A stretch of 24,074 nucleotides of DNA, from positions 1 to 24,074 of the IMG/VR virus record IMGVR_UViG_3300026285_000005, one strand, 5' to 3'. The notes below the pieces were generated by a model. It searched no databases, was not told where the DNA came from, and worked only from the letters and a program-made list of their open reading frames with translations. Shown here one piece after another: positions 4,132-20,351 of this stretch. Within the stretch, counting starts at the first letter, position 1, and every line of letters starts with the position of its first letter. Source of the stretch: a virus. A program made the position numbers and the translations under genes.

Positions 4132-6002
4132 AAGTAAAAACAAAAATTCGTTGGGATTTAACCGCAGAACGTGATATTTGGCGAGCTATCTGCGCTCCTA
4201 ACAGATGGTTTAATGATTCGGGGAAAACTATAACCCATCCCCGCTCCCTCTGGTGGTTTATTCACCTAGCTTGGGGCGCAGAGTTTTATTTTCGTAAGCA
4301 TCCCCAACATCCTCGCTGGCTCTCCGAAACCATCCACGGTCCCTATCTAACTTGGCTTCAAGAGCATCTTCTTATATGGAAAGAAGATTGTCTCCTCGGT
4401 GGCACCGATAGATATTACCTGGCTATTGTGCTGCCCCGAGGATTCGGCAAAACAGTTACAGGCACTAAATCAGCTATGTTATGGCTTCATCTTGATGAAC
4501 CTGACATGTCTACGCTTGTAGCTAGCGCGACTGAGCCGCTCTCTAATGATATTTACATGGCTATCAAAGCCGTTATGTCAGGAGAAGATCGAGACTCTTG
4601 GTTCTGCTGGCTCTATGGAAACTGGAGAAAAGGAGCCAAAGAATGGACGAAAACTTATCTCCATCACGGATTTCGCCAATCTAACAACTTAAGCGAACCT
4701 TCCTTCGACATTAGTGCTGTCGGAATTGGTATGACAGGTTATCACCATCGAATTCATTGTTGGGATGATCCTATCACGATTAATAAACTCCGAGAAGGTC
4801 GAGAAGCATATGCGCGAGCAGTTCATTCTGCTGTCAATGCCTCTTATAACGCTCTCCAAACTAACGGTCTTATGATGTTTGTTCTTACCCGCTACTTCGA
4901 TGATGATGTTGCCGGTAAGCACTTTCGAGAAGAAGGTATCGCAACATGGTCTGGTATGGATTGTCCTCATATCGACATGTTCGATAAAGTTCCATTTGGG
5001 AAAGGAATATGGCATGTCTACTTCATGCAGACCGAAGATGAACTCACGGGAGAACCGACGCATCCTCTACTATGGGATAAAAAGAAAATTGCAGAAGCAA
5101 AACGACGTGATCCCGAAGACTTCGCCTGCCAGCAACAAAATAATCCTGGAACCGGAGAACGTGCTCCAATCCTCGAACACCAACTCCGCGATCTTTTCAT
5201 CGACTATAACGAGTTTACCTATGACACCATCATTGAATCTGCGTCTGTTCACATTGATACGGCATTTAAGTCCCATAATACAGTTCGTACTGGTGATGAC
5301 TCCGCGATTGTAGTTTGGCTTCATGATTCACGTCGAAATGGTCTTATTTATCTCGACACCGATTTAATGCGAGCTTCAAATGAATGGCGAGAAGAAGATT
5401 TTAATGATGAACTCATTAAAGTCTTTCTCAACCTTCGTCGCAGAGTAATATATGTTAAAGCCCTTACAGATGAAAAAGAGGGCATGGGTAAATTCGGAAG
5501 TTATAAAAATAGACTTTTAAGCATCATTCATGGTGCTGGTTGTACTCTTAGCCCTAATAACTTCAAGCAACTTAATAGAACAGTAAAAAAGACAGATCGT
5601 GTTCGTCAAACTTTAGGTTATTGGGCTGAGAATTATGTCCGAGTTCTTCTCCATAAAGACATCAGTGGTCAATGGATAATCCCTCCAGTCGTTCGTAAGT
5701 TCTTCAGTCAAATTCTACGAATTGACACGATTAAACATAATGATATAGCCGACGCTGCTTCAGATGTCTTTACTCCTGGTATTTGGGTTCGTCCAAGCCG
5801 TCAAGATTATCAATATGAAGGTGGAACTGATCCTTGGGCACCTGCTGATGAATTCTTTAAATCGCTTTCCCGTCCGGTATCCAATCAAGAGCTATACGCT
5901 ATGATTGACGAAAACCGAGAAATTCAAGAAACTATGGGTCCCACTCATGGCTGGTCTGTAGATGATTATGATATATACTTATCACCAAGAGAACCTATAT
6001 AG
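4128..6002 (+). CDS. terL: Terminase large subunit (packaging ATPase and nuclease)
   Basis: This gene encodes 624 residues, the motor that pumps DNA into the prohead and cuts it. The N-terminal ATPase half shows a Walker A variant PRGFGKT (103-109), a Walker B region HRIHCWDDP (207-215, acidic residues D213/D214) and a coupling motif region near VLTRYFDDD (252-260). The C-terminal half has an RNase H-like nuclease signature: D377 in SVHIDTAF, a following strand pair (IVVWLH and GLIYLD), and a late acidic cluster in HNDIADAASD (D539, D542, D546). The length is normal to slightly long for the family. The ATGA overlap with the zinc miniprotein upstream couples translation. The call is secure; the packaging mode (cos or headful) cannot be told. 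Confidence 0.95.
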   Translation: MKVKTKIRWDLTAERDIWRAICAPNRWFNDSGKTITHPRSLWWFIHLAWGAEFYFRKHPQHPRWLSETIHGPYLTWLQEHLLIWKEDCLLGGTDRYYLAIVLPRGFGKTVTGTKSAMLWLHLDEPDMSTLVASATEPLSNDIYMAIKAVMSGEDRDSWFCWLYGNWRKGAKEWTKTYLHHGFRQSNNLSEPSFDISAVGIGMTGYHHRIHCWDDPITINKLREGREAYARAVHSAVNASYNALQTNGLMMFVLTRYFDDDVAGKHFREEGIATWSGMDCPHIDMFDKVPFGKGIWHVYFMQTEDELTGEPTHPLLWDKKKIAEAKRRDPEDFACQQQNNPGTGERAPILEHQLRDLFIDYNEFTYDTIIESASVHIDTAFKSHNTVRTGDDSAIVVWLHDSRRNGLIYLDTDLMRASNEWREEDFNDELIKVFLNLRRRVIYVKALTDEKEGMGKFGSYKNRLLSIIHGAGCTLSPNNFKQLNRTVKKTDRVRQTLGYWAENYVRVLLHKDISGQWIIPPVVRKFFSQILRIDTIKHNDIADAASDVFTPGIWVRPSRQDYQYEGGTDPWAPADEFFKSLSRPVSNQELYAMIDENREIQETMGPTHGWSVDDYDIYLSPREPI

Positions 6003-6012
6003 AAAGGAAGCT

Positions 6013-6615
6013 ATGAAGCTTCTAGTCTTTGACCTCGAAACTCGTAAACTTAATACAGACCTTAGACCTGATAATCCCGAAGAAGGATGGGACGCTCTAA
6101 AACGTGGTGAAGGTGGTATTTCCTGCTTAATGATTTGGGATGACACTGAGAAATGGATGTCGATATATGATGACAAAACTATCCTCGCCGGAGCAATGCA
6201 CCTGGAATCTGCCGATTTACTTATCGGATTCCATACCATCGGGTTCGATATTCCTGTTATCGAAGGTGTCCTCGGGCGGAAACTGCAGATTAAACAACAT
6301 TATGATATATACGCTGAAATCTCCAAAGCGAACGCGCACATGGGCGTTATCGGTCGTAAAGGCGAGTTTACCTTGGATGCTGTGGCTCGTCGTGCTTTTG
6401 GCCGTGGTAAAAATGGTCATGGCGCTAATATCACAGTTCTCTTGAAAGAACAACGTTATGGTGAACTTTTTAATTATTGTGCGAATGATGTTAGACTCAC
6501 TCGTGATCTCTTTGAATATATTCGTGAGAACAATGGTATTCCCTCCACGAATAATCGTTTTTTAACGCTCGCTGTACCTGACTGGTTAAAACAGCCTGTA
6601 GAGGATAAATGTTAA
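6013..6615 (+). CDS. DEDDy-type 3'-5' exonuclease-like protein
   Basis: This gene encodes 200 residues from ATG 6013, directly behind AAAGGAAG; the frame is open upstream into terL, but that part lacks a site. All DEDDy motifs are visible. Exo I is VFDLET with D7 and E9. Exo II is GFHTIGFDIP with D79. Exo III is YCANDVRLT with Y155 and D159. A further acidic DIY at 98-100 and the basic GRKGEFTLDAVARRAFG lie between them. These residues coordinate two metal ions in DnaQ/PolB-type exonucleases that trim 3' DNA or RNA ends. The protein is a stand-alone nuclease with no polymerase domain, set between the large terminase and the portal. It overlaps the portal gene by 7 bp. It may trim DNA ends at packaging or degrade nucleic acids. 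The fold call is strong, the substrate unknown. Confidence 0.85.
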   Translation: MKLLVFDLETRKLNTDLRPDNPEEGWDALKRGEGGISCLMIWDDTEKWMSIYDDKTILAGAMHLESADLLIGFHTIGFDIPVIEGVLGRKLQIKQHYDIYAEISKANAHMGVIGRKGEFTLDAVARRAFGRGKNGHGANITVLLKEQRYGELFNYCANDVRLTRDLFEYIRENNGIPSTNNRFLTLAVPDWLKQPVEDKC

Positions 6616-8549
6616 CAACTTCGTCTCAAACATCTTCAAGTATAATTATACAAAAAGCCGAAGGTACAGTAGCGTATCGTGATCAGATCGTAGACGTTGT
6701 GACCTCCAGGAAAAAGCTCTCCGAATCTTATTTCACCGGAATTCGCAATCAATGGCCTCGTCTCTATGATTTATGGCGTGGTACCTGGACAGGTCGATTT
6801 CATCCCCACAAAAATAACGTTCATATCCCTCTTATTTTCTCAGCTATTTGGGCCGACGCCGCACGAAAAGCCGCCACTTCCCTTAATATGTGGCCTATCG
6901 TTACTTTTCTCGGTTACGGCCCTGATGATATTGCAATAGCTCGTAAACGTGAAGCTCTCATCTCTGCTCAAATGAAAGATGATGATGCTTTTCTTAAACA
7001 AACGGACTTTATTGTCTCTGCTGATTTATATGGTAAAAGTATCATGCAAATCGGTTGGAAACGAAAATCAGAAGTTCGTATCATAGAATTCATTGATAGA
7101 CTCCCAATCTCAGGTAGAGTCGTCAAATCCATCAAAAAAGGTAAGATCACCTCTTTCGATGGTCCAATAACAGAACAAATTGATCTCCTAGACTGTTTCC
7201 CTCAGCCTGGAGTCAAACGTTTACGAGACATGAAATGGTTTATACGTCGATATTTCCTTGATCTGGATGATGTTAGGTATCTCGCCAGCGAGGAAACCTT
7301 CGATAAAAACGAAGTTCGACGTTTAGAATTTGAAGGTGGTGTTGGTTATCAGGGAGCAGATCAAGCTTCTATGATTCGTAGATTCGCTGTACGTTCAGGC
7401 ATGGACGACGAATCTGTTCGGATGATGGATAAGTATACACGTCCGATTGAAATATGGGAGATGTGGGGTGATATTCCCTCCGAATTATCCCCTGATGGAG
7501 TCTTACGTCGCGTAATAACAGTCGCCAATGGTCGTTATCTATTTCGGAACAGACCGATTCCGTTTTGGCATGGTCTATTACCCTTTGTCGATTTCTCACC
7601 AACACCTGACCCTCATTATTACTATGCTCCAGGGAAAGCAGAGATTGTTGAAAAATTACAGCTTGTAGGTAATCGCTACCTTAACCAATCTCTTGACGCC
7701 GCCGATCTTATAATTGATCCGATGTGGTTCTATGACCGTGGAGCAAATCTTAACACTCGTAATCTATACTCTAAACCTGGGAGATGGATTGCGGGGGATG
7801 GTAATCCATCTACCTTTGTTTCTCCGATGCAGTCTGAATTAAATGGCTTAACAATCGCAGACACGAAGATTAATCAAATTCGTGAGTTTACTCAGATGGG
7901 AACAGGTATAGTTGACGACGCCGTTCAAGGTCTACAAGGCGATCGTCAAACTGCTCGTGAGTTTATTGGTCGTCGAGAAGCAGCCGGAACTCGTCTACTC
8001 TTAGAATCTCGTATCTATGAAGAAATGACTCTCGAACCTGAAGCTAATATGTTTGTAGCTCTTAATAAACAATTCCTTGATACACCCGTTGAAGTCTTAA
8101 TTCTCGGTGACGCAGCAATGTTCGATCCTGTTACTCTTGAACCTATAGTTGGAACTCGTGAATATCTTGATGATTATGACCTAGTTCCTAATTACGCTGC
8201 TCGTGCAGTTGGAGCAACCTCTGCTTTATCAAAAGGAATGAAACAAGAAAGGCTTCTTCAACTTCTCCAAGCCTTAAATTCCCCAATAGGTCAAATGGCG
8301 ATGGGTCAAATTAACGCAGTTAATTTCTTCCGTGGTATTTTTCGCGAATTCGAGATTCCTAATATTAATGAAATCTTCGCAGGACAACCTCAATTAGCGA
8401 ATATGGCGGATCAAGCTTCAGGTGGACAAGGATTAAATGCTGTCCCTTCCTCGGGGCAGATAGTAAAGGGAACAGGACCATTACCATTACCATCTATGCC
8501 AGGTGAACAGAAACCTATAACACTACAAAATACACTGCCGGGCACGTAG
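6609..8549 (+). CDS. Portal protein
   Basis: This gene encodes 646 residues, forming the dodecameric ring at one capsid vertex through which DNA passes. The ATG at 6609 follows GAGGAT and overlaps the exonuclease stop. The size, the position after terL and before scaffold and capsid, and the composition fit podovirus-type portals. The N-terminal part (about 35-140) has helical segments with many aromatic and basic residues (NQWPRLYDLWRGTWTG, then HIPLIFSAIWADAARKAA). A central long helix region (KAEIVEKLQLVGNRYLNQSLD) and a later helix (TQMGTGIVDDAVQG, then ETAREFIGRREAAG-like) resemble the crown and stem. The C-terminus is glycine/proline/glutamine-rich and probably disordered. No short exact motif defines the family, so the call combines length, order and general resemblance. 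Confidence 0.85.
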   Translation: MLTTSSQTSSSIIIQKAEGTVAYRDQIVDVVTSRKKLSESYFTGIRNQWPRLYDLWRGTWTGRFHPHKNNVHIPLIFSAIWADAARKAATSLNMWPIVTFLGYGPDDIAIARKREALISAQMKDDDAFLKQTDFIVSADLYGKSIMQIGWKRKSEVRIIEFIDRLPISGRVVKSIKKGKITSFDGPITEQIDLLDCFPQPGVKRLRDMKWFIRRYFLDLDDVRYLASEETFDKNEVRRLEFEGGVGYQGADQASMIRRFAVRSGMDDESVRMMDKYTRPIEIWEMWGDIPSELSPDGVLRRVITVANGRYLFRNRPIPFWHGLLPFVDFSPTPDPHYYYAPGKAEIVEKLQLVGNRYLNQSLDAADLIIDPMWFYDRGANLNTRNLYSKPGRWIAGDGNPSTFVSPMQSELNGLTIADTKINQIREFTQMGTGIVDDAVQGLQGDRQTAREFIGRREAAGTRLLLESRIYEEMTLEPEANMFVALNKQFLDTPVEVLILGDAAMFDPVTLEPIVGTREYLDDYDLVPNYAARAVGATSALSKGMKQERLLQLLQALNSPIGQMAMGQINAVNFFRGIFREFEIPNINEIFAGQPQLANMADQASGGQGLNAVPSSGQIVKGTGPLPLPSMPGEQKPITLQNTLPGT

Positions 8550-12667: not shown

Positions 12668-13984
12668 ATGGATTGGTATATTTGGGCTACTAATAGAGCA
12701 CGTAATCCTAACGCATGTCAGTATTACAGGATAAATGTTCCGCTTCAACAATTAGAAAAATTACAATACGCATACGGATACGAAGATAAAGGTGAACGTG
12801 GTGATGATGATCTTCGTGCCATGTTAACCTCAGATGTTTGTATATTTTATTCTTTGATGGGGGAGACTGTCTTATATCAATTACAAACCATAAAGAACAT
12901 GAAATCTGGGATTAGAATAGATGGTAAAAGACAGTTTCCCCCTATTGTTATATATGACGTAGATGATAATTCTGATTATGTTCACCCAATGAATCCGACC
13001 TTTTCTTACCTCGGGGTGAGATCATATCCTGATGAAAAATTTCTAGAACCAGGAAATATAATTGAATGGGAAAATCCTGATGGTGAAAGAGAAATTTTAT
13101 GGGAAGATAAGATAACTAAAGACGGTCTTATTCTATTTGATATTGAACGTAATCTCAAAGAACTTAAGATTCGACATGAAATAGTTCGAACCTGTCACGG
13201 AGCTACAGTAACCACCCCACCATTAGCTAATTATTTTCGAGAGGTCATTGGTCAAAAAAATGTCTACGTCTTTCCTAATACAATTATACCAGGGCATTAT
13301 GAACAATTTGATGTTGTTAGAACAGATCATAATGTTCGAATTCTATGGCAAGGATCACAATCACATTATGTAGATTGGTATCCTATGCGTGATGCTCTTA
13401 AAACTGTAAATGATAAATATCCTAATATAACCTGGGTTATATATGGTACTAAATTTAGTTGGATTCACGATATAATTCCCGAAGATAAGATTGAATATCA
13501 TTCTTGGTCGCCTTACCAATCTTATAAACTTCGTAGAGGATTACTTAATATTGATATAAATTTATGTGTACTCTCTGATAATGGATTTAATAGATGTAAA
13601 TCTGCTATCAAATGGTACGAAGGTTCAATTTGGGATAAACCCGAAGCTACGATTGCTGCAAATGTAGCACCTTATTTTGAAATCCAAGATGGAAAAACAG
13701 GATTATTATATAACTCACTTGATGAATTCGTTGAGAAAATGGGTACATTAATTGAAAATGCTGAATTAAGAAAAAGACTTGGTGAAAATGCTAGGAAATG
13801 GGTTCTCAATAATCGAACACCAGAAAAAACAATTCCAGGTTTATTCGAATTTTATAAAGAATTAAAAGATGCTCAGAAGCGTGAATTAGCTCCAATGGTT
13901 AAGATTGGGACTAACGCAGAGTTTAGGAAGCTGACCGCGAGGAAACAGCAGGAGAAAGAATGCCTTCCAGTCCAGGAAATGTAA
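12668..13984 (+). CDS. GT-B-fold glycosyltransferase (GT4-like) within the virion operon
   Basis: This gene encodes 438 residues, predicted to transfer a sugar from a nucleotide-sugar donor. The ATG at 12668 follows AGAAAGGA. The N-terminal domain carries a basic start (NACQYYRINVPLQQL) and IVIYDVDDNSDYVHP (93-107). The C-terminal domain shows VYVFPNTI (199-206), the strand-loop ILWQGSQSHYVDW (225-237), NRCKSAIKWYEGS (308-320) where E318 would contact the donor ribose, and DGKTGLLYNSLDEFVEKM (341-358). It ends with the RKRLGENARKWVL helix typical of GT4-type enzymes. It overlaps the adaptor gene by 25 bp. Nearby virion proteins or the host surface are likely acceptors; DNA modification is less likely because no hypermodification gene is nearby. 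The fold call is strong, the donor and acceptor unknown. Confidence 0.85.
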   Translation: MDWYIWATNRARNPNACQYYRINVPLQQLEKLQYAYGYEDKGERGDDDLRAMLTSDVCIFYSLMGETVLYQLQTIKNMKSGIRIDGKRQFPPIVIYDVDDNSDYVHPMNPTFSYLGVRSYPDEKFLEPGNIIEWENPDGEREILWEDKITKDGLILFDIERNLKELKIRHEIVRTCHGATVTTPPLANYFREVIGQKNVYVFPNTIIPGHYEQFDVVRTDHNVRILWQGSQSHYVDWYPMRDALKTVNDKYPNITWVIYGTKFSWIHDIIPEDKIEYHSWSPYQSYKLRRGLLNIDINLCVLSDNGFNRCKSAIKWYEGSIWDKPEATIAANVAPYFEIQDGKTGLLYNSLDEFVEKMGTLIENAELRKRLGENARKWVLNNRTPEKTIPGLFEFYKELKDAQKRELAPMVKIGTNAEFRKLTARKQQEKECLPVQEM

Positions 13985-14940
13985 ATTTATCTATATCGCG
14001 AACCAACGCGAAATTATATATATCTAGAATTATCGGTGGTGGCGGTACTGGAGACAATATCGCGCTTGCCGAAGAGATATTACTTCGAGCTTTTATTGAT
14101 TGGCAGAATGAAAAAGATTGGGAATTTCTTCTTAAGGATGTTTCTAATAATTTTACTGTTGACAGTTGTGTGACTTCTTCAGGTTTACCAACGATTTCTG
14201 CTCCCGTAACAGCGGCTTTTGATGGAATTAATATAGGAATAACAGTGACGGGTACAGGAATTCCTGCGAGCACTACAATCTTAAGTTATACAAGAGGATC
14301 AGACGGAACGGTTAATCAGATAACTCTATCTAATAATGCAACTGGATCATCGACAGTCACATTAACATTTGGTGGAACTATTCCAGTTCGAATTGGAGTT
14401 CAAGATTATAATCTTCCAACGGATTTCTATAAGCATTATGGTGTTAGATTTACATCTACTCTTAAGTGGCCATTAATGTTTGTTAGACCTCGTGATTGGA
14501 ATCGAATTACTCTAGATCAAACTGTTCAGGGTTCTCCAGAATTATATACTATTTTTAATCCTGTAAGTCCGCTAACTCAGAATAAAGGAGTTTATCGTCT
14601 AAGATTATACAGAATTCCAAGCGCAACAGATACTTTATTAGTACAATATTATCGTAAATTTGATGCGTTAGCTGATCCAATTGATATGGATAGTGTTTAT
14701 CTCTATAAGTTCTTAGATTATTGTCGATCTCTGATACTTAGTGTTAAAAAAGGATTTGATGATCCCGCTTCTTATGCTGCTGAAGCATTTCAAGGACTTC
14801 AAAAAGCTAAGTCTAGTGATGAAGCAGTAACTGAAGATCAAGATGTTCGAATGAAATCTCAAATGGAAATGAATAATGACTTTAGAATGCCTCTCTGGTC
14901 TAATGGTGCATTTACACCATTTCCAGATTACGGCTGGTAA
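13960..14940 (+). CDS. Head-to-tail adaptor protein with an inserted repeat module
   Basis: This gene encodes 326 residues. The ATG at 13960 follows AGGAG-like bases within the end of the glycosyltransferase gene. It has the layout of podovirus adaptors, which bind below the portal. An N-terminal helical part includes IALAEEILLRAFIDWQNEKD and WEFLLKD. Then comes a beta region with YNLPTDFYKHYGVRF, and a helical C-terminus with LYKFLDYCRSLILSVKKGFDD. Between WEFLLKD and YNLP lies an extra segment (about 64-138) with GTGIPASTTILSY, one of five copies of a module also found in the nozzle and fibre. It precedes the nozzle gene by 3 bp. The call comes from order, length and the Y-x-LP-x-D pattern. 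Confidence 0.75.
   Translation: MPSSPGNVNLSISRTNAKLYISRIIGGGGTGDNIALAEEILLRAFIDWQNEKDWEFLLKDVSNNFTVDSCVTSSGLPTISAPVTAAFDGINIGITVTGTGIPASTTILSYTRGSDGTVNQITLSNNATGSSTVTLTFGGTIPVRIGVQDYNLPTDFYKHYGVRFTSTLKWPLMFVRPRDWNRITLDQTVQGSPELYTIFNPVSPLTQNKGVYRLRLYRIPSATDTLLVQYYRKFDALADPIDMDSVYLYKFLDYCRSLILSVKKGFDDPASYAAEAFQGLQKAKSSDEAVTEDQDVRMKSQMEMNNDFRMPLWSNGAFTPFPDYGW
14151..14372 (+). repeat. Module copy 1 (in the adaptor)
   Basis: Residues about 64-138 of the adaptor show the shared pattern: V-D/N-C-x-T-x...G-I-x-V-T-GTGIPAST-T-I-L, then ITLSNNATGSST, then a TLTF end. It is the most diverged copy in its second half (L-S-N-N-A-T in place of I-S-Q-A-A-T). It replaces or extends a loop before the conserved YNLP of the adaptor. 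Confidence 0.7.
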
Positions 14941-14943
14941 CTA

Positions 14944-17900
14944 ATGCCTACACCTATAACTGAATTTTTCAATGGTGGCGTGGTCACAGCCCGACATCCT
15001 GCATTATTAATGCCCGGAGAAGTACAGCAAGCTGATCATTGTGTTTATCGTCTTCATGACACATCTATTCAACGTGCTCCTGGGCGAACTATATATAACT
15101 CAACACCTCTTAGTGCTGGTCTTAAAGGACTTGCTCAATTAACTTTCGATCAGAGAACAGATCAATTAATTGCATGGCCTCAAGGTGATGGTACAAATTC
15201 ATTCTTATATAAGAGTGATTTTACAGCAATTACAGGTGTATTTTCTATTATTACTGGTCCCGGAGTTGTAATTGCTAATACTCATTCTAATACAACTATA
15301 GATGGTGCGCCAGCCGGTTCTTTTACTAATATGATTGTAGGTACAAGAATAACTGGTTCTGGAATTCCAAATGGTACATATGTCACTATAGTCAATTCGG
15401 GTACAGCAATTACTATTTCTCAAGCAGCAACCTCTACATTAACAGGTACAACACTGGCATTTGATGCTGGAATAGCATTATCTTTTCAAGACTTAGGAAC
15501 TGAGACTCTTGATATAATTCAATGGCAAAATAGTTTCTTTGTACTTCCCAAAAATGGAAATGTTGTCCGATTATTTTGGAAACAATTTCCAACTGGAACT
15601 GTACCTGAAACCTTAATTGGTCGGCCAGCTGGTTTATTACCTATTACATCACCACCCACAATTACAGTTCAAAATGGTGCTGGTTGGTCTTCTGTTCTCG
15701 GTAATGGATATTATTGGTTTCTAGTTACTGAAATACTCACATCTGATAATCCTGATGTACCAGATATTGAAGCAGGTTATACGGCTAATGAAGGACGAGC
15801 GGTTGTTGTTCAGATAACTACATATGCTACACAATTTATTAGAATAACATTTCCCACAATTAAGAATGATGGTACCAATGGTACTAATCGTGCTACACAT
15901 TGGGGAATCTATATGTCTTTTATTACGGCAGGAGTAGCTGCTTATTCTGATCCTACGAATATGCCATCTTTAGCGACTTTTCGAAGAATCGCTAAGATGC
16001 CCATCGAGGATACCGTAAGAGATATTAAATTTGATAATACTACTCAAGGAACCAAACTTCCAACTATAGCAGGTGTAGGACCTGATGGATTAGCTCAATT
16101 TTCTAATACAGTTGGATTTTTTGATCGTGGTGGACAAATCGCTAGTGGTGTTTCAGGTTCTGGAACAACGATGGAAGAAGCTCTATCTGGTTTTGGATTT
16201 AGTGCAGGTTCTCCTTATAGCGGCTACAGTATAACTGGAATTAAAGTAACTATTGTAAGTAGTATTGGAAATAATAATACTGCTGGTTATTATTTATGGT
16301 TAGATAATGCTGGTAGTAAATCTAGTAATCGTAATTTTGGTGTTTCTGATCGAACTACTATGTTCGCTAAAGAATGGGGTGGTCAGTTTGATCCTTGGGG
16401 ACAAACGTGGACACCAACAGATATCTCAAATCTCAGAGTTATTGTTCTAAAAGGTTTTTCAGCTGCAGCACAAGTCCTAAAAGTTGATTATATTGAAGTT
16501 ACTGTTTATTATAGTGGTGCATCTCTTGATGTAGGAAGTATAAATCTCGATGGTCCTTACTATCCTATCGTAACTTATCGTTCTCAAGTTGGATTTACCG
16601 TAAATGATACGGCTAATTTTACCATTCCCTCAGCTTCTACTGGAGATATATTTAAAGGATCATTAGTTTTAAATGATGCATCTAATCCTAGTCTTATTCG
16701 TTATTCTATTCCTAATGCTCCTGAGTCTTTTCCCAAACCCTACTTTCTAAAATTTAATTCTAAGAAAAAAGATATTATAACATTTATCCGTAAAGTTGGT
16801 CAAATTTTAATTGTAGGTATGCGTGATTCCATTAAACGTGTTAATTACCTTCCAACTGAGCTTGATATAGAATTTCAACAAGGAATTGCCCATGAAGATG
16901 TTGTTACGGATCATGGAATTGCAGGACCTTTAGCAGCAACTCTATTTGATTTATCTAATAGTGGAGTTGTTCTCGCGTACGCGAGCTATAACGGTTGGTA
17001 TTTTACAGATGGTATTACCGCTAGACCATTAAATCTTGATATTAAACTACAAGACCTTGTTAAATCTACTGCATTAGGTACAAGTGTATTTCGTGTGTAT
17101 CCCCGAGAAAAATGGCTTGTTTTCTTTTATTGCCCAAACGGTGCTACTCATACCAAAAATACACGAGCAATTATCTTTCACTATGCTTCAGATAAAATAA
17201 AAGAAGGTGGCTTTTTACCCGCAACAGGTCCTCTCTCAATTTCAGCGAGATCAGCAGCAGAAGCTCATATCGCGGGCCTTCCTTATCTTCTTACAGGCCA
17301 TCAAACGGATGGTAAAGTTTATGTAGAAGATAGTGGAGATACTCAGGCAGCTAGTTATCAAGTCCATAATGATTCTGATTCTCTAGTAAGTGCTCCTATT
17401 GTTCCTCTAATTCGTACTCGTAAAATATTCGCTTCAGGTTATGCTAGAGATACTGCTGTACAAAGAATTTATATCTTACATCATGCTACAGGAACATCTT
17501 ATACTATATCTTCGACAACTACAATTAGTAGTACCGCAGTCACCTCGGCTGCAGCCTTCACTAATGTTGTTGTTGGAATGAAAGTTCGTAGTACAGGATC
17601 AACGATTCTACCAGATACTATTGTCACTGTTAAAACAGATAATAGTAATATTACGATATCTCAAGCAGCCACAGCTAATGGCACAGAGAATCTGGTATTT
17701 GATGATGGTACACTAACACTAGTGCTTAGAGGTTCCGCTATTGATGAAAATATGGTTGACTTAGCCACTGGCTACCCCTCAACGTTGACTGGTGATCTCT
17801 TAGTTAAAGGACTCGACGATATAAAACAAGGACTTGAACTAAAGATTCAGAAGGTTTTATTACCTTCCGCGAGCACAGCTGATTTAGGACAACAAATGAA

Positions 17901-17964
17901 ATTAAATAACTTCACATATCTTGCCGATGATAGTCTCACTGAAATTAATCGGAGTACACAGTAA
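14944..17964 (+). CDS. Tail nozzle/tail tubular protein B-like, with inserted domains
   Basis: This gene encodes 1006 residues, predicted to form the tapering tube below the adaptor. The N-terminus (FFNGGVVTARHPALLMPGE, then QRAPGRTIYNSTPL) has the F-x-G-G-x-x-T...L...GE...R-x-G pattern seen at the start of nozzle proteins of short-tailed phages. The core contains ITFIRKVGQILIVGMRDSIK and GIAHEDVVTDHGIAGPLA, followed by NGWYFTDGITARPLN. Three extra segments interrupt it: repeat modules at about residues 100-175 and 852-921, and a beta-sandwich-like domain at about 400-525 (with DPWGQTWTPTDI and DYIEVTVYYSG). Its stop overlaps the fibre start (TAATG). No enzymatic motif is seen. The nozzle call is from pattern and order. 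Confidence 0.75.
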   Translation: MPTPITEFFNGGVVTARHPALLMPGEVQQADHCVYRLHDTSIQRAPGRTIYNSTPLSAGLKGLAQLTFDQRTDQLIAWPQGDGTNSFLYKSDFTAITGVFSIITGPGVVIANTHSNTTIDGAPAGSFTNMIVGTRITGSGIPNGTYVTIVNSGTAITISQAATSTLTGTTLAFDAGIALSFQDLGTETLDIIQWQNSFFVLPKNGNVVRLFWKQFPTGTVPETLIGRPAGLLPITSPPTITVQNGAGWSSVLGNGYYWFLVTEILTSDNPDVPDIEAGYTANEGRAVVVQITTYATQFIRITFPTIKNDGTNGTNRATHWGIYMSFITAGVAAYSDPTNMPSLATFRRIAKMPIEDTVRDIKFDNTTQGTKLPTIAGVGPDGLAQFSNTVGFFDRGGQIASGVSGSGTTMEEALSGFGFSAGSPYSGYSITGIKVTIVSSIGNNNTAGYYLWLDNAGSKSSNRNFGVSDRTTMFAKEWGGQFDPWGQTWTPTDISNLRVIVLKGFSAAAQVLKVDYIEVTVYYSGASLDVGSINLDGPYYPIVTYRSQVGFTVNDTANFTIPSASTGDIFKGSLVLNDASNPSLIRYSIPNAPESFPKPYFLKFNSKKKDIITFIRKVGQILIVGMRDSIKRVNYLPTELDIEFQQGIAHEDVVTDHGIAGPLAATLFDLSNSGVVLAYASYNGWYFTDGITARPLNLDIKLQDLVKSTALGTSVFRVYPREKWLVFFYCPNGATHTKNTRAIIFHYASDKIKEGGFLPATGPLSISARSAAEAHIAGLPYLLTGHQTDGKVYVEDSGDTQAASYQVHNDSDSLVSAPIVPLIRTRKIFASGYARDTAVQRIYILHHATGTSYTISSTTTISSTAVTSAAAFTNVVVGMKVRSTGSTILPDTIVTVKTDNSNITISQAATANGTENLVFDDGTLTLVLRGSAIDENMVDLATGYPSTLTGDLLVKGLDDIKQGLELKIQKVLLPSASTADLGQQMKLNNFTYLADDSLTEINRSTQ
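15241..15468 (+). repeat. Module copy 2 (nozzle N-terminal part)
   Basis: About residues 100-175 of the nozzle read VIANTHSNTTIDG, then MIVGTRITGSGIPNGTYVT, then ITISQAATSTLTGTTLAFD. It keeps the three landmarks of the family: the GxGIPxGTxVT turn, the I-T-I-S-Q-A-A-T strand and the L-A-F-D end. Confidence 0.75.
17500..17706 (+). repeat. Module copy 3 (nozzle C-terminal part)
   Basis: About residues 852-921 of the nozzle read STTTISSTAVTSAAAFTNV, then VGMKVRSTGSTILPDTIVT, then NITISQAATANGTENLVFD. Its DNA around 17634-17673 matches copy 5 at about 34 of 40 positions, so these two copies are related at nucleotide level and not only in protein. Confidence 0.75.
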
Positions 17965-20351
17965 TGCCTAAATCGCCCTCCTTAATTTCTAAAGATATAC
18001 CAAGATGGCTATATGAAGTCTTACGTAAGCTTGACGACCGCGCCGAGGAAACCTCCCAACAAATGGGTGCTATTTCTCGTGGTGAATCTCCGGTTGGTGG
18101 TGGTTTATCACTTGATTTAACAGATTATCTTAAATTAAGTGGCCGACCTAATCAATGGGCTCATGGTAGAAATATATTTGATGCTAAGATTTCAACGCCT
18201 ACAGGCTCATTTTATTTCTCTACATCTCAAACTGGATTTGGTTTAAGAGCTTTAACATCTCCTACTATTCCACCTCCTGGTTTACCGAATACATATGTCA
18301 ATGTTAATTTCAGTATTGAAGAAAGTCTCGCTAGTAGAACATTATATGTAAATAGAGAATGGATTTTTCCGAACTTCAATGAAGTAGAAGGAGATACAAC
18401 GGGATATCACATCTTTGCTGATACTTCCGATTATCAACATTTTACAAAGAAAACACTTGATATTGGTTGTATACATTCATTTTCTGATTCAGTAGTTGCG
18501 AATAATAGTGGTATTAGTGATGAATCTGAAACAAAAATGATTCAACTTAAAATTAGTGGTAGTATGGCTGCTAATCGTGATGCTTCTACTCATGCTATGA
18601 CAGATACTTGGCCTGTTATTCAGTTTCCAGCAATGGACCTTCGTCTTAGTCAAGGTGTTACATCTAGAGATAGAACACATACTTTTTGTATCCTAAAGAC
18701 TCCAACTTCTGGTGGTGCTCATACTGGAACACCTTTTGAAATTGATGGTTTTATTTATGGTGGAGATACAAGACGTGAGTTATATTCTATGTATGGTGGA
18801 GCTAAAGGAACATTACCTGCTCCGACAACCGGAAGTTTAATTCAATGGAATCCTGCTATTACTGGATTAACAGGTACTTTTACTGTAAGTAGTCCGATAG
18901 TCAGTGGTATTACACCTAATACAACGGGTATTAAAGTTGGTATGCGCGTGCGCGAGTCTGTGAGTAATTATAGACTTACTGAAGATACATTTGTTGTATC
19001 GGTTGATAGTTCTAGTCAAATTACAATGAGTCAAGATTGGACTGATTCAACAAATAGCAAAGCATTTGTTTGTTTCGGACCTAATTATATTACTACAGCA
19101 GCACTTTCGGGTATTTTAACAATTGAGCATTCTTCGACGACAGATCGCGATACTTATACTGTAAACTGTACTACGAATGGAACTACTGTTGTAACTTCAG
19201 CTGCATTATTCGGTCCAGTTCAAGTTGGTCACGCGATATTTGGAACAGGTATTCCTGCCGGAACAACGGTAACAGTTGTAACTGATACAAGTAATATTAC
19301 AATATCACAAGCAGCAACAGACTCAACTACTAATATTCGAAACTTTGCATCTGATGATCATACACAATTAATTCGAAAATATGGTCCTACAGGACAATTT
19401 ATTGGAGTTCAACCAGGTGGAACGATTCCAGCGGGTGGACTCCATATGAGTGGATTCTTAAGTGTTGGAAGCACAGTTCCATCTTCAACTACGGGAACGG
19501 TGAATATCGAGAAGATCGTAACTGGCGTGCTTTCAAACTTTGTAATCTTCAAGATGACGCATGGCGGTACTGGATCAGTAAGCAGTGCGCACAAAACACT
19601 GATTGTCCAGAATTTCGGTGCTCCATCTAGGTCTGCTGGAAGTCCAAACTTCACCGGGATTGATGTTTTTATTACGCCGAATGTGCCAGGCGGGCTTACC
19701 GACAATATTATTCTCGGAATCAACATGACCGCCGTTCCCTCTTTGGGTGGTGGATCGGTAGTCAATCAAATTACTGGTGTGAATGCTGAATGTGGATGCG
19801 GTGGTAGCGGGAGCGCAACGCTCATGCAAGGTGGTACATTTACACTGCGACCGGGTGCTTCTACGATTGGGTCTATTCGTGCAATTGAACTTGTATCAAG
19901 TTCTAGCCCGACACAAACAGCTACAGTTTCTAATATGTTTGGTATTTATATGGATACTCTCGGTGCTCCAGCAACAATAAGTGGTGCCGGAGCGATTACC
20001 AGTTTTTATGGCATTTATCGTGTTAGTACAGTTTCTGCGACAAATAAATGGTTTATTTATATGACTGTTACTGATTTACCTAGTATTCATACTGGACCAC
20101 TACGTTTAGGAGATGCTGTAACACCAACACATATTCTAGAACTTGCTGCAGGAACCACAACAAAAGCTCCTATACTATTCACAGCTGGAACAAATCTTAC
20201 AACAGCACTAGCCGGAGCAATGGAGTGGGACGGAAGTAGAGCATATTTAACACAAACAGTCGGACCAACAAGAAAGACTATTGCGTATACAACGGATAGT
20301 TTACCAGCTGTTCCTGGATTTTCAAGAATTTTTGCAACAATGGGAGCATAA
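17964..20351 (+). CDS. Tail fibre / receptor-binding protein
   Basis: This gene encodes 795 residues. The ATG at 17964 overlaps the nozzle stop. The N-terminus has a helix (IPRWLYEVLRKLDDRAEETS) that could attach to the tail, then YLKLSGRPNQWAHGRNIF, the L-S-G-R...G pattern common in fibre shafts. Two repeat modules lie at about 303-371 and 396-462. A glycine/serine-rich, GC-shifted part follows at about 507-640, including CGCGGSGSATLMQGG. The C-terminus (APILFTAGTNLTTALAGAME, then WDGSRAYLTQTVGPTRKTI) has the T-x-G-T-x-L-T-T...AGA-x-E-x-D-G pattern of phage fibre tips. There is no peptidase or depolymerase motif. The fibre probably binds the host surface. The function is inferred from order and pattern. 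Confidence 0.8.
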   Translation: MPKSPSLISKDIPRWLYEVLRKLDDRAEETSQQMGAISRGESPVGGGLSLDLTDYLKLSGRPNQWAHGRNIFDAKISTPTGSFYFSTSQTGFGLRALTSPTIPPPGLPNTYVNVNFSIEESLASRTLYVNREWIFPNFNEVEGDTTGYHIFADTSDYQHFTKKTLDIGCIHSFSDSVVANNSGISDESETKMIQLKISGSMAANRDASTHAMTDTWPVIQFPAMDLRLSQGVTSRDRTHTFCILKTPTSGGAHTGTPFEIDGFIYGGDTRRELYSMYGGAKGTLPAPTTGSLIQWNPAITGLTGTFTVSSPIVSGITPNTTGIKVGMRVRESVSNYRLTEDTFVVSVDSSSQITMSQDWTDSTNSKAFVCFGPNYITTAALSGILTIEHSSTTDRDTYTVNCTTNGTTVVTSAALFGPVQVGHAIFGTGIPAGTTVTVVTDTSNITISQAATDSTTNIRNFASDDHTQLIRKYGPTGQFIGVQPGGTIPAGGLHMSGFLSVGSTVPSSTTGTVNIEKIVTGVLSNFVIFKMTHGGTGSVSSAHKTLIVQNFGAPSRSAGSPNFTGIDVFITPNVPGGLTDNIILGINMTAVPSLGGGSVVNQITGVNAECGCGGSGSATLMQGGTFTLRPGASTIGSIRAIELVSSSSPTQTATVSNMFGIYMDTLGAPATISGAGAITSFYGIYRVSTVSATNKWFIYMTVTDLPSIHTGPLRLGDAVTPTHILELAAGTTTKAPILFTAGTNLTTALAGAMEWDGSRAYLTQTVGPTRKTIAYTTDSLPAVPGFSRIFATMGA
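18872..19077 (+). repeat. Module copy 4 (tail fibre, degenerate)
   Basis: About residues 303-371 of the fibre read GTFTVSSPIVSGITPN, then IKVGMRVRESVSNYRL, then SSQITMSQDWTDSTNSKAFV. Only the K-V-G-M turn, the Q-I-T-M-S-Q strand and the spacing remain; the GIPxGT turn is lost. This is the weakest of the five. Confidence 0.55.
19150..19350 (+). repeat. Module copy 5 (tail fibre)
   Basis: About residues 396-462 of the fibre read DTYTVNCTTNGTTVVTSAA, then VGHAIFGTGIPAGTTVTVV, then NITISQAATDSTTNIRNF. All landmarks are present. It is the best match to copy 3, including near-identical DNA at the I-T-I-S-Q-A-A-T strand. Confidence 0.75.
19485..19870 (+). other. GC-shifted mosaic segment inside the tail fibre gene
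   Basis: From about 19485 the coding sequence changes visibly: ATC, GGC, CTG, GCG and GAG codons replace the ATT, GGT, TTA and GAA codons used on either side, and this lasts to about 19870. The reading frame is intact through both edges. This looks like a recombined receptor-binding segment taken from another phage or host. The boundaries are by eye. Confidence 0.55.

Follow-up and report, generated by a model that had tools for sequence, protein, structure and literature searches.

Does a single small domain recur in several neighboring parts of one phage tail machine and, if so, how did it come to be there and what does it contribute? The question is raised by IMG/VR virus record IMGVR_UViG_3300026285_000005, a 24,074-base record of an uncultured virus (hereafter "the window," meaning this whole stretch of DNA), in which a beta-type module had been proposed, from the sequence, to be repeated across the adaptor, nozzle, and tail-fiber genes. 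We found one module family forming independent insert domains in three adjacent tail proteins. The five copies, all on the plus strand and 71-75 residues long (n = 5), are M1 in the adaptor (residues 66-140; 14155..14379), M2 and M3 in the nozzle (residues 105-176; 15256..15471, and residues 849-922, in the C-terminal part behind the propeller; 17488..17709), and M4 and M5 in the fiber-like protein (residues 301-372; 18864..19079, and residues 395-465; 19146..19358). A profile of 105 relatives (111 members minus all window sequences), whose members were collected by iteration with the window's own copies as seed, recovers exactly these five, one in the adaptor and two in each of the other proteins as the original prediction placed them, with E values of 2.6e-17, 1.6e-16, 2.4e-17, 4.2e-10, and 8.7e-19 for M1 to M5, respectively. 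Elsewhere in the window it gives no significant match, and reversed proteins yielded no hits. Pairwise shuffle z-scores among the copies range from 2.6 to 13.6, and the two weakest (2.6 and 3.0) both include M4, the lowest-scoring copy, which lacks the GTGIP turn. M4 had been called degenerate and rightly so, yet the profile test proposed for the family shows it, too, to be significantly similar to the others.

What kind of domain is this? The module is a Thr/Ser-rich, six-stranded beta domain of ~70 residues. No Pfam family covers it, while several PHROGs virion-structural families include it, and a search of 66 modules against Pfam returned no credible immunoglobulin (Ig) family (the best Ig-named entry, PF12421, reached 0.056 with one member). 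Only one sequence relative has a solved structure, the Arthrobacter phage Bridgette decoration protein (PDB 8eci), matched at E = 8.8e-8 by a five-row alignment and at 2.5e-10 by one of 66 rows; the whole nozzle also matches 8eci (6e-6), through the M2 stretch. Structure comparison leads independently to the same chain: 8eci chain 1 superimposes on residues 58-140 of the adaptor model, which contain M1, with Z = 6.4 and a root-mean-square deviation (rmsd) of 2.6 over 75 residues at 33% identity. By sequence, and for M1 by fold, the module thus belongs to the 8eci-type decoration domain family. Two further structures match the insert and nothing else, namely the insertion domain of the LKA1 tailspike (284-369; Z = 4.8, rmsd 2.0, 66 residues) and residues 103-177 of the Mystique tail tube (Z = 4.5). 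F1-ATPase chains also appear in Foldseek, at E ~0.4-0.6, a weak resemblance that would be fold-level at most. The general kind, a promiscuous beta-domain on virion proteins, is already known; this family and its conserved adaptor/nozzle/fiber set appear to be undescribed in the searchable literature, and the domain itself appears uncatalogued.

In which proteins do the modules reside? The window's gene order runs portal, capsid protein, adaptor, nozzle, and the portal, major capsid protein, and adaptor fall in SU10 families in Pfam (1.4e-20, 1.7e-67, and 9.8e-9, respectively). The capsid protein is only ~30% identical to those of the nearest cultured phages, and a search of 50,697 phage records detected no match to the adaptor or the nozzle; relatives are present in IMG/VR as contigs of up to 57-65 kilobases (kb). 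The adaptor, or head-to-tail ring protein (13960..14940, plus strand; 326 residues), matches PF24175 (SU10_adaptor) at 36.4 bits against a gathering cutoff of 27. Its AlphaFold model, made with 29 orthologs, has a predicted local distance difference test (pLDDT) score of 80.5, with ~90-96 over most of the insert, and matches the adaptor of cyanophage A4 (9k09_d; Z = 13.6), T7 gp11 (11.6), and the SU10 adaptor (7z47_A; 10.9). The nozzle (14944..17964, plus strand; 1,006 residues), modeled with 28 orthologs (pLDDT 87.2), is predicted to be of the SU10/T7 type, with a platform and a beta-propeller; the model matches the Pa223 nozzle (Z = 27.3) and the SU10 nozzle (Z = 24.9 over 480 residues; Foldseek 3.3e-18). 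The names adaptor and nozzle are thus confirmed by Pfam and/or fold. The third protein (17964..20351, plus strand; 795 residues) has no Pfam or PHROG match, and we call it fiber-like from its position behind the nozzle and from its N-terminal ~80 residues, common to the post-nozzle protein of relatives.

Are the modules insertions into these proteins? In the adaptor model, short strands at 58-60 and 141-143 enclose M1, and in the nozzle model M3 is flanked by strands 837-846 and 925-931; the module interrupts a host fold that it enters and leaves by neighboring strands, as phage beta-barrel insertion domains do. That it is an insert is also shown by relatives with empty sites. The expectation that the segments fold as independent domains is supported for the adaptor and nozzle by a confident insert fold in both models. 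Of 32 adaptor sequences, all but three have 72-92 residues at this position; the exceptions have 4 (L148), 11 (the third adaptor copy of L102), and 50 (L135). In a tree from insert-free columns, L102 copy 3 is nested among module-bearing adaptors, paired with L067 (bootstrap 91%; Shimodaira–Hasegawa-like approximate likelihood ratio test only 66%), and its empty site is therefore read as a loss. L148 lies on a long branch, and no module was found in its nozzle either; its module-free state may be ancestral. The presence of a module in the usually compact adaptor had been thought unusual. That view does not hold, since SU10, T7, and KP32 adaptors already carry a fiber-dock domain (PMC9509320) and the adaptors of nearly all relatives carry the insert.

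The arrangement recurs beyond the window. In ten relatives of 57-65 kb, where host proteins were assigned by position and frame length, modules occur only in the adaptor, the nozzle, and/or the following protein. Two divergent relatives place a module at another internal nozzle site, unfilled in the window's nozzle (L142:7393-7599 and L144:7324-7527); M3 was not detected in their nozzles. The L102 adaptor just mentioned is one of three tandem adaptor domains in a single 832-residue open reading frame (ORF; L102:12484-14979), 42-48% identical to one another. Copies 1 and 2 have a module-length insert, and copy 3, without it, groups elsewhere on the tree. Four such chains could form a 12-subunit ring.

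Did the copies spread within this genome, or were they inherited at their sites? The original prediction had put the agreement of copies 3 and 5 around the I-T-I-S strand at about 34 of 40 bases and took this to make DNA-level duplication or recombination likely. The count is exact (17634 vs. 19280), but it lies near what protein similarity alone produces: sequences back-translated with the codon usage of the window agree at 30.1 ± 2.1 of 40 bases, with P(≥34) = 0.06. Among the ten pairs of copies, M3/M5 is the only one to share codons above expectation (17 vs. 11.7; z = 2.0), the other nine being at background, and its third-position identity is just 0.41. For M1, M3, and M5, the closest sequence is in each case the same-site module of a different virus; M3 is 65-67% identical to its same-site counterpart vs. 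51-54% to M5, and M5 is closest to the fiber module of L005 (67%). For M2, the L005 ortholog is as close as any by pairwise alignment. A quick tree had raised horizontal replacement of M2 from an amidase or another phage, a candidate we rejected, as the L005 nozzle ortholog is equally close or closer pairwise. Across viruses, same-site modules have mean identities of 0.47 (adaptor), 0.48 (nozzle-C), and 0.37 (nozzle-N), vs. ~0.29-0.33 between the adaptor copy and the two nozzle copies of a single genome and 0.31-0.34 for different sites in different genomes. In the module tree, 10/11 adaptor and 20/23 nozzle-C copies group together; since the alignment offers only 69 usable columns, few branches are well supported. 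The copies thus cluster by site rather than by genome, and recent duplication is not supported.

What might an old, site-inherited domain do? Conservation in the profile falls on glycines in turns and hydrophobic residues in strands (G29, G34, G36-I37, G40-T41, V43, I52-T53, S55, and F69), a pattern that reads as a scaffold rather than a shared binding site. Module and core are about equally conserved in the adaptor (0.43 vs. 0.45) and at the nozzle-C site (0.49 vs. 0.50), so the M1 and M3 sites probably make specific structural contacts; the nozzle-N copy is more variable (0.33 vs. 0.50), which fits looser constraint there. The account we favor, with moderate confidence, is that a mobile insertion domain, a six-stranded beta unit that folds on its own, entered hairpins of the adaptor and nozzle, and the post-nozzle fiber, in an SU10-like podovirus lineage long before the window virus and has since been inherited site by site. 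Its role would most likely be that of a rigid spacer or contact pad at the surface: as a stable barrel borne on two antiparallel strands, it may broaden the exterior of the nozzle and the adaptor ring and brace the contacts of neighboring subunits and fiber bases, in parallel with decoration proteins and coat-protein I-domains on capsids. Several points weigh against this account. The domain is dispensable, as its clean loss from L102 copy 3 and its partial loss from L135 show; structural matches apart from 8eci are weak (Z < 5); the Thr/Ser-rich composition inflates module identities somewhat; and the contact-pad role is an inference.

Could the modules instead bind the host surface? As lectin-like domains they would make low-affinity, many-copy contacts with a host polysaccharide, and the ring stoichiometry inferred from SU10, with 12 adaptors and 6 nozzles (PMC9509320), would confer high avidity. 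Modules also occur in collar-type fibers and an amidase, and the LKA1 insertion domain, according to its authors, deepens a substrate groove (PMC5701251). The composition, however, is unlike that of the usual sugar-binding surface: Trp makes up 0.2%, Tyr 1.1%, and Asp, Glu, Lys, and Arg together <6%, and no patch of aromatic or charged residues of surface type is conserved in the profile, where the only conserved aromatics are two core-type Phe columns. Nor do the adaptor and nozzle-C copies vary faster than their cores. The glycan binding that had been suggested therefore found no support in the profile, and we regard this reading as unlikely.

A second alternative, slightly less likely still, turns the relation to sugars around: the Thr/Ser-rich modules would be dedicated O-glycosylation acceptors for the phage's own glycosyltransferase (GT), and the sugar coat they bear would shield or tune the tail rather than the head. 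A GT gene of GT4/GT-B-like type (12668..13984, plus strand; NF038229 at 1.2e-9, PF13524 at 8.8e-5), a possible partner outside the module set, does lie within the structural cluster directly upstream of the adaptor, and this synteny is kept in ~30 module-bearing relatives, including the divergent L142 and L144. Thr and Ser make up 31-35% of the modules vs. 12-23% of the rest of the same proteins, and mycobacteriophage GTs are reported, in a passage of PMC12363180 citing Freeman 2023, to glycosylate capsid and tail-tube proteins. However, a relative of the GT was not detected in the vicinity of modules from unrelated phages, so the domain can do without it; beta domains are often rich in Thr; and the module-free L148 has sugar genes beside its adaptor as well. 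These L148 genes (L148:1116-4131) encode a dehydratase (PF02719, polysaccharide biosynthesis), a cytidylyltransferase (PF02348), a NeuB-type synthase (PF03102), and a methyltransferase, which suggests that its virion gene cluster holds nonulosonic-acid sugar genes.

About as doubtful as glycosylation is neutral hitchhiking, in which a tolerated plug-in domain would be kept by drift in permissive loops with no positive role. The empty sites of L102 copy 3 and L148, the shortened one of L135, and the fast divergence of M2 speak for it; set against them are the module's persistence at unchanged sites in almost every relative and the conservation of M1 and M3 at the level of the core. Recent duplication or gene conversion within the genome, carrying the module from nozzle to fiber, is very improbable and already largely refuted, because the base and codon sharing of M3 and M5 that prompted it is countered by the back-translation null, their third-position identity, and the nearest kin of M1, M3, and M5, and the L005 ortholog of M2, at the same sites in other viruses.

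How widespread is the module? In a different type of phage (L011) it occurs in a gp6-like head-tail connector; it is also present in collar-domain fibers (L013 and L039), in a large virion protein (L015), and, once each, in a virion structural protein of the cultured cyanophages S-H9-1 (E = 1e-10) and S-RSM4 (1e-9). Searches of cultured phages by tblastn with single modules and a consensus returned nothing, the low-complexity filter probably masking such Thr/Ser-rich queries. A phage amidase (phrog_5107; L006:1970-3787) bears a module that is among the closest sequences to M2 (55-59%). In an unplaced phage group (L038-L051; e.g., L043:3543-4490 and 4497-7208), neighboring proteins of 316 and 904 residues both carry modules and look like an adaptor/nozzle pair without detectable sequence kinship. 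The module is also present in bacterial surface-type proteins; Verrucomicrobia proteins with a prepilin-like N-terminus, GFTLIEMMLAVSIGSLMLAA, have it at residues 117-195 (L151:4476-5324, L156, L158, and L159). These results define a widespread virion domain, lacking a Pfam model and having one solved relative, in which one part is reused in capsid decoration, head-tail adaptors, nozzles, fibers, collar proteins, and an amidase. Relatives with naturally empty sites pose directly the question of what an accessory beta-domain adds to a tail machine, and the module may serve as an annotation marker for fast-diverging tail proteins in those uncultured podoviruses that have an adaptor and a nozzle without detectable match in cultured phages.

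How does this arrangement compare with known systems? The Bridgette decoration protein (8eci chain 1, residues 3-77) is of the same domain family by sequence and fold, but there the domain forms most of a separate protein, whereas in the window it is an insert within tail proteins; the modules are not free-standing capsid decoration proteins, being internal to the adaptor, nozzle, and fiber ORFs. LKA1 tailspike gp49 (4ru4) offers a similar architecture, since its residues 284-370 form a six-stranded beta-barrel inserted in another fold, in which its authors saw a likeness to a V-type ATPase domain and to the I-domain of the P22 coat (PMC5701251); unlike the module, that insert adjoins an enzyme groove, and the module sequence profile misses it. 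The P22 I-domain is likewise a six-stranded beta-barrel insert, but in a capsid protein (PMC5701251), and the beta-barrel I-domain of the crAss001 coat adds wall thickness and stability (PMC10172136, PMC11243222); the link from the module to either I-domain is indirect, solely through the DALI result of the LKA1 authors. The P22 coat is absent from the structural matches listed for the module, which carries no weight in either direction. Large Kyanoviridae phages S-H9-1 and S-RSM4 (phrog_5838 relatives) carry one module copy in a virion structural protein, but the host protein is unrelated to those of the window. The SU10-like (Kuravirus) tail has an adaptor, gp11, and a nozzle, gp17, that are the same host proteins by fold, and solved adaptor chains (SU10, VP1, and others) of 202-227 residues are about the length of the window's adaptor minus its insert. 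In SU10 the adaptor ring docks long fibers, and instead of the module the nozzle bears Ig-like domains and a short-fiber dock loop (residues 839-857; PMC9509320). This loop is a conceivable positional counterpart of M3. These surface additions are a clear precedent for extra beta-domains on the adaptor and nozzle surfaces where the window virus carries its own.

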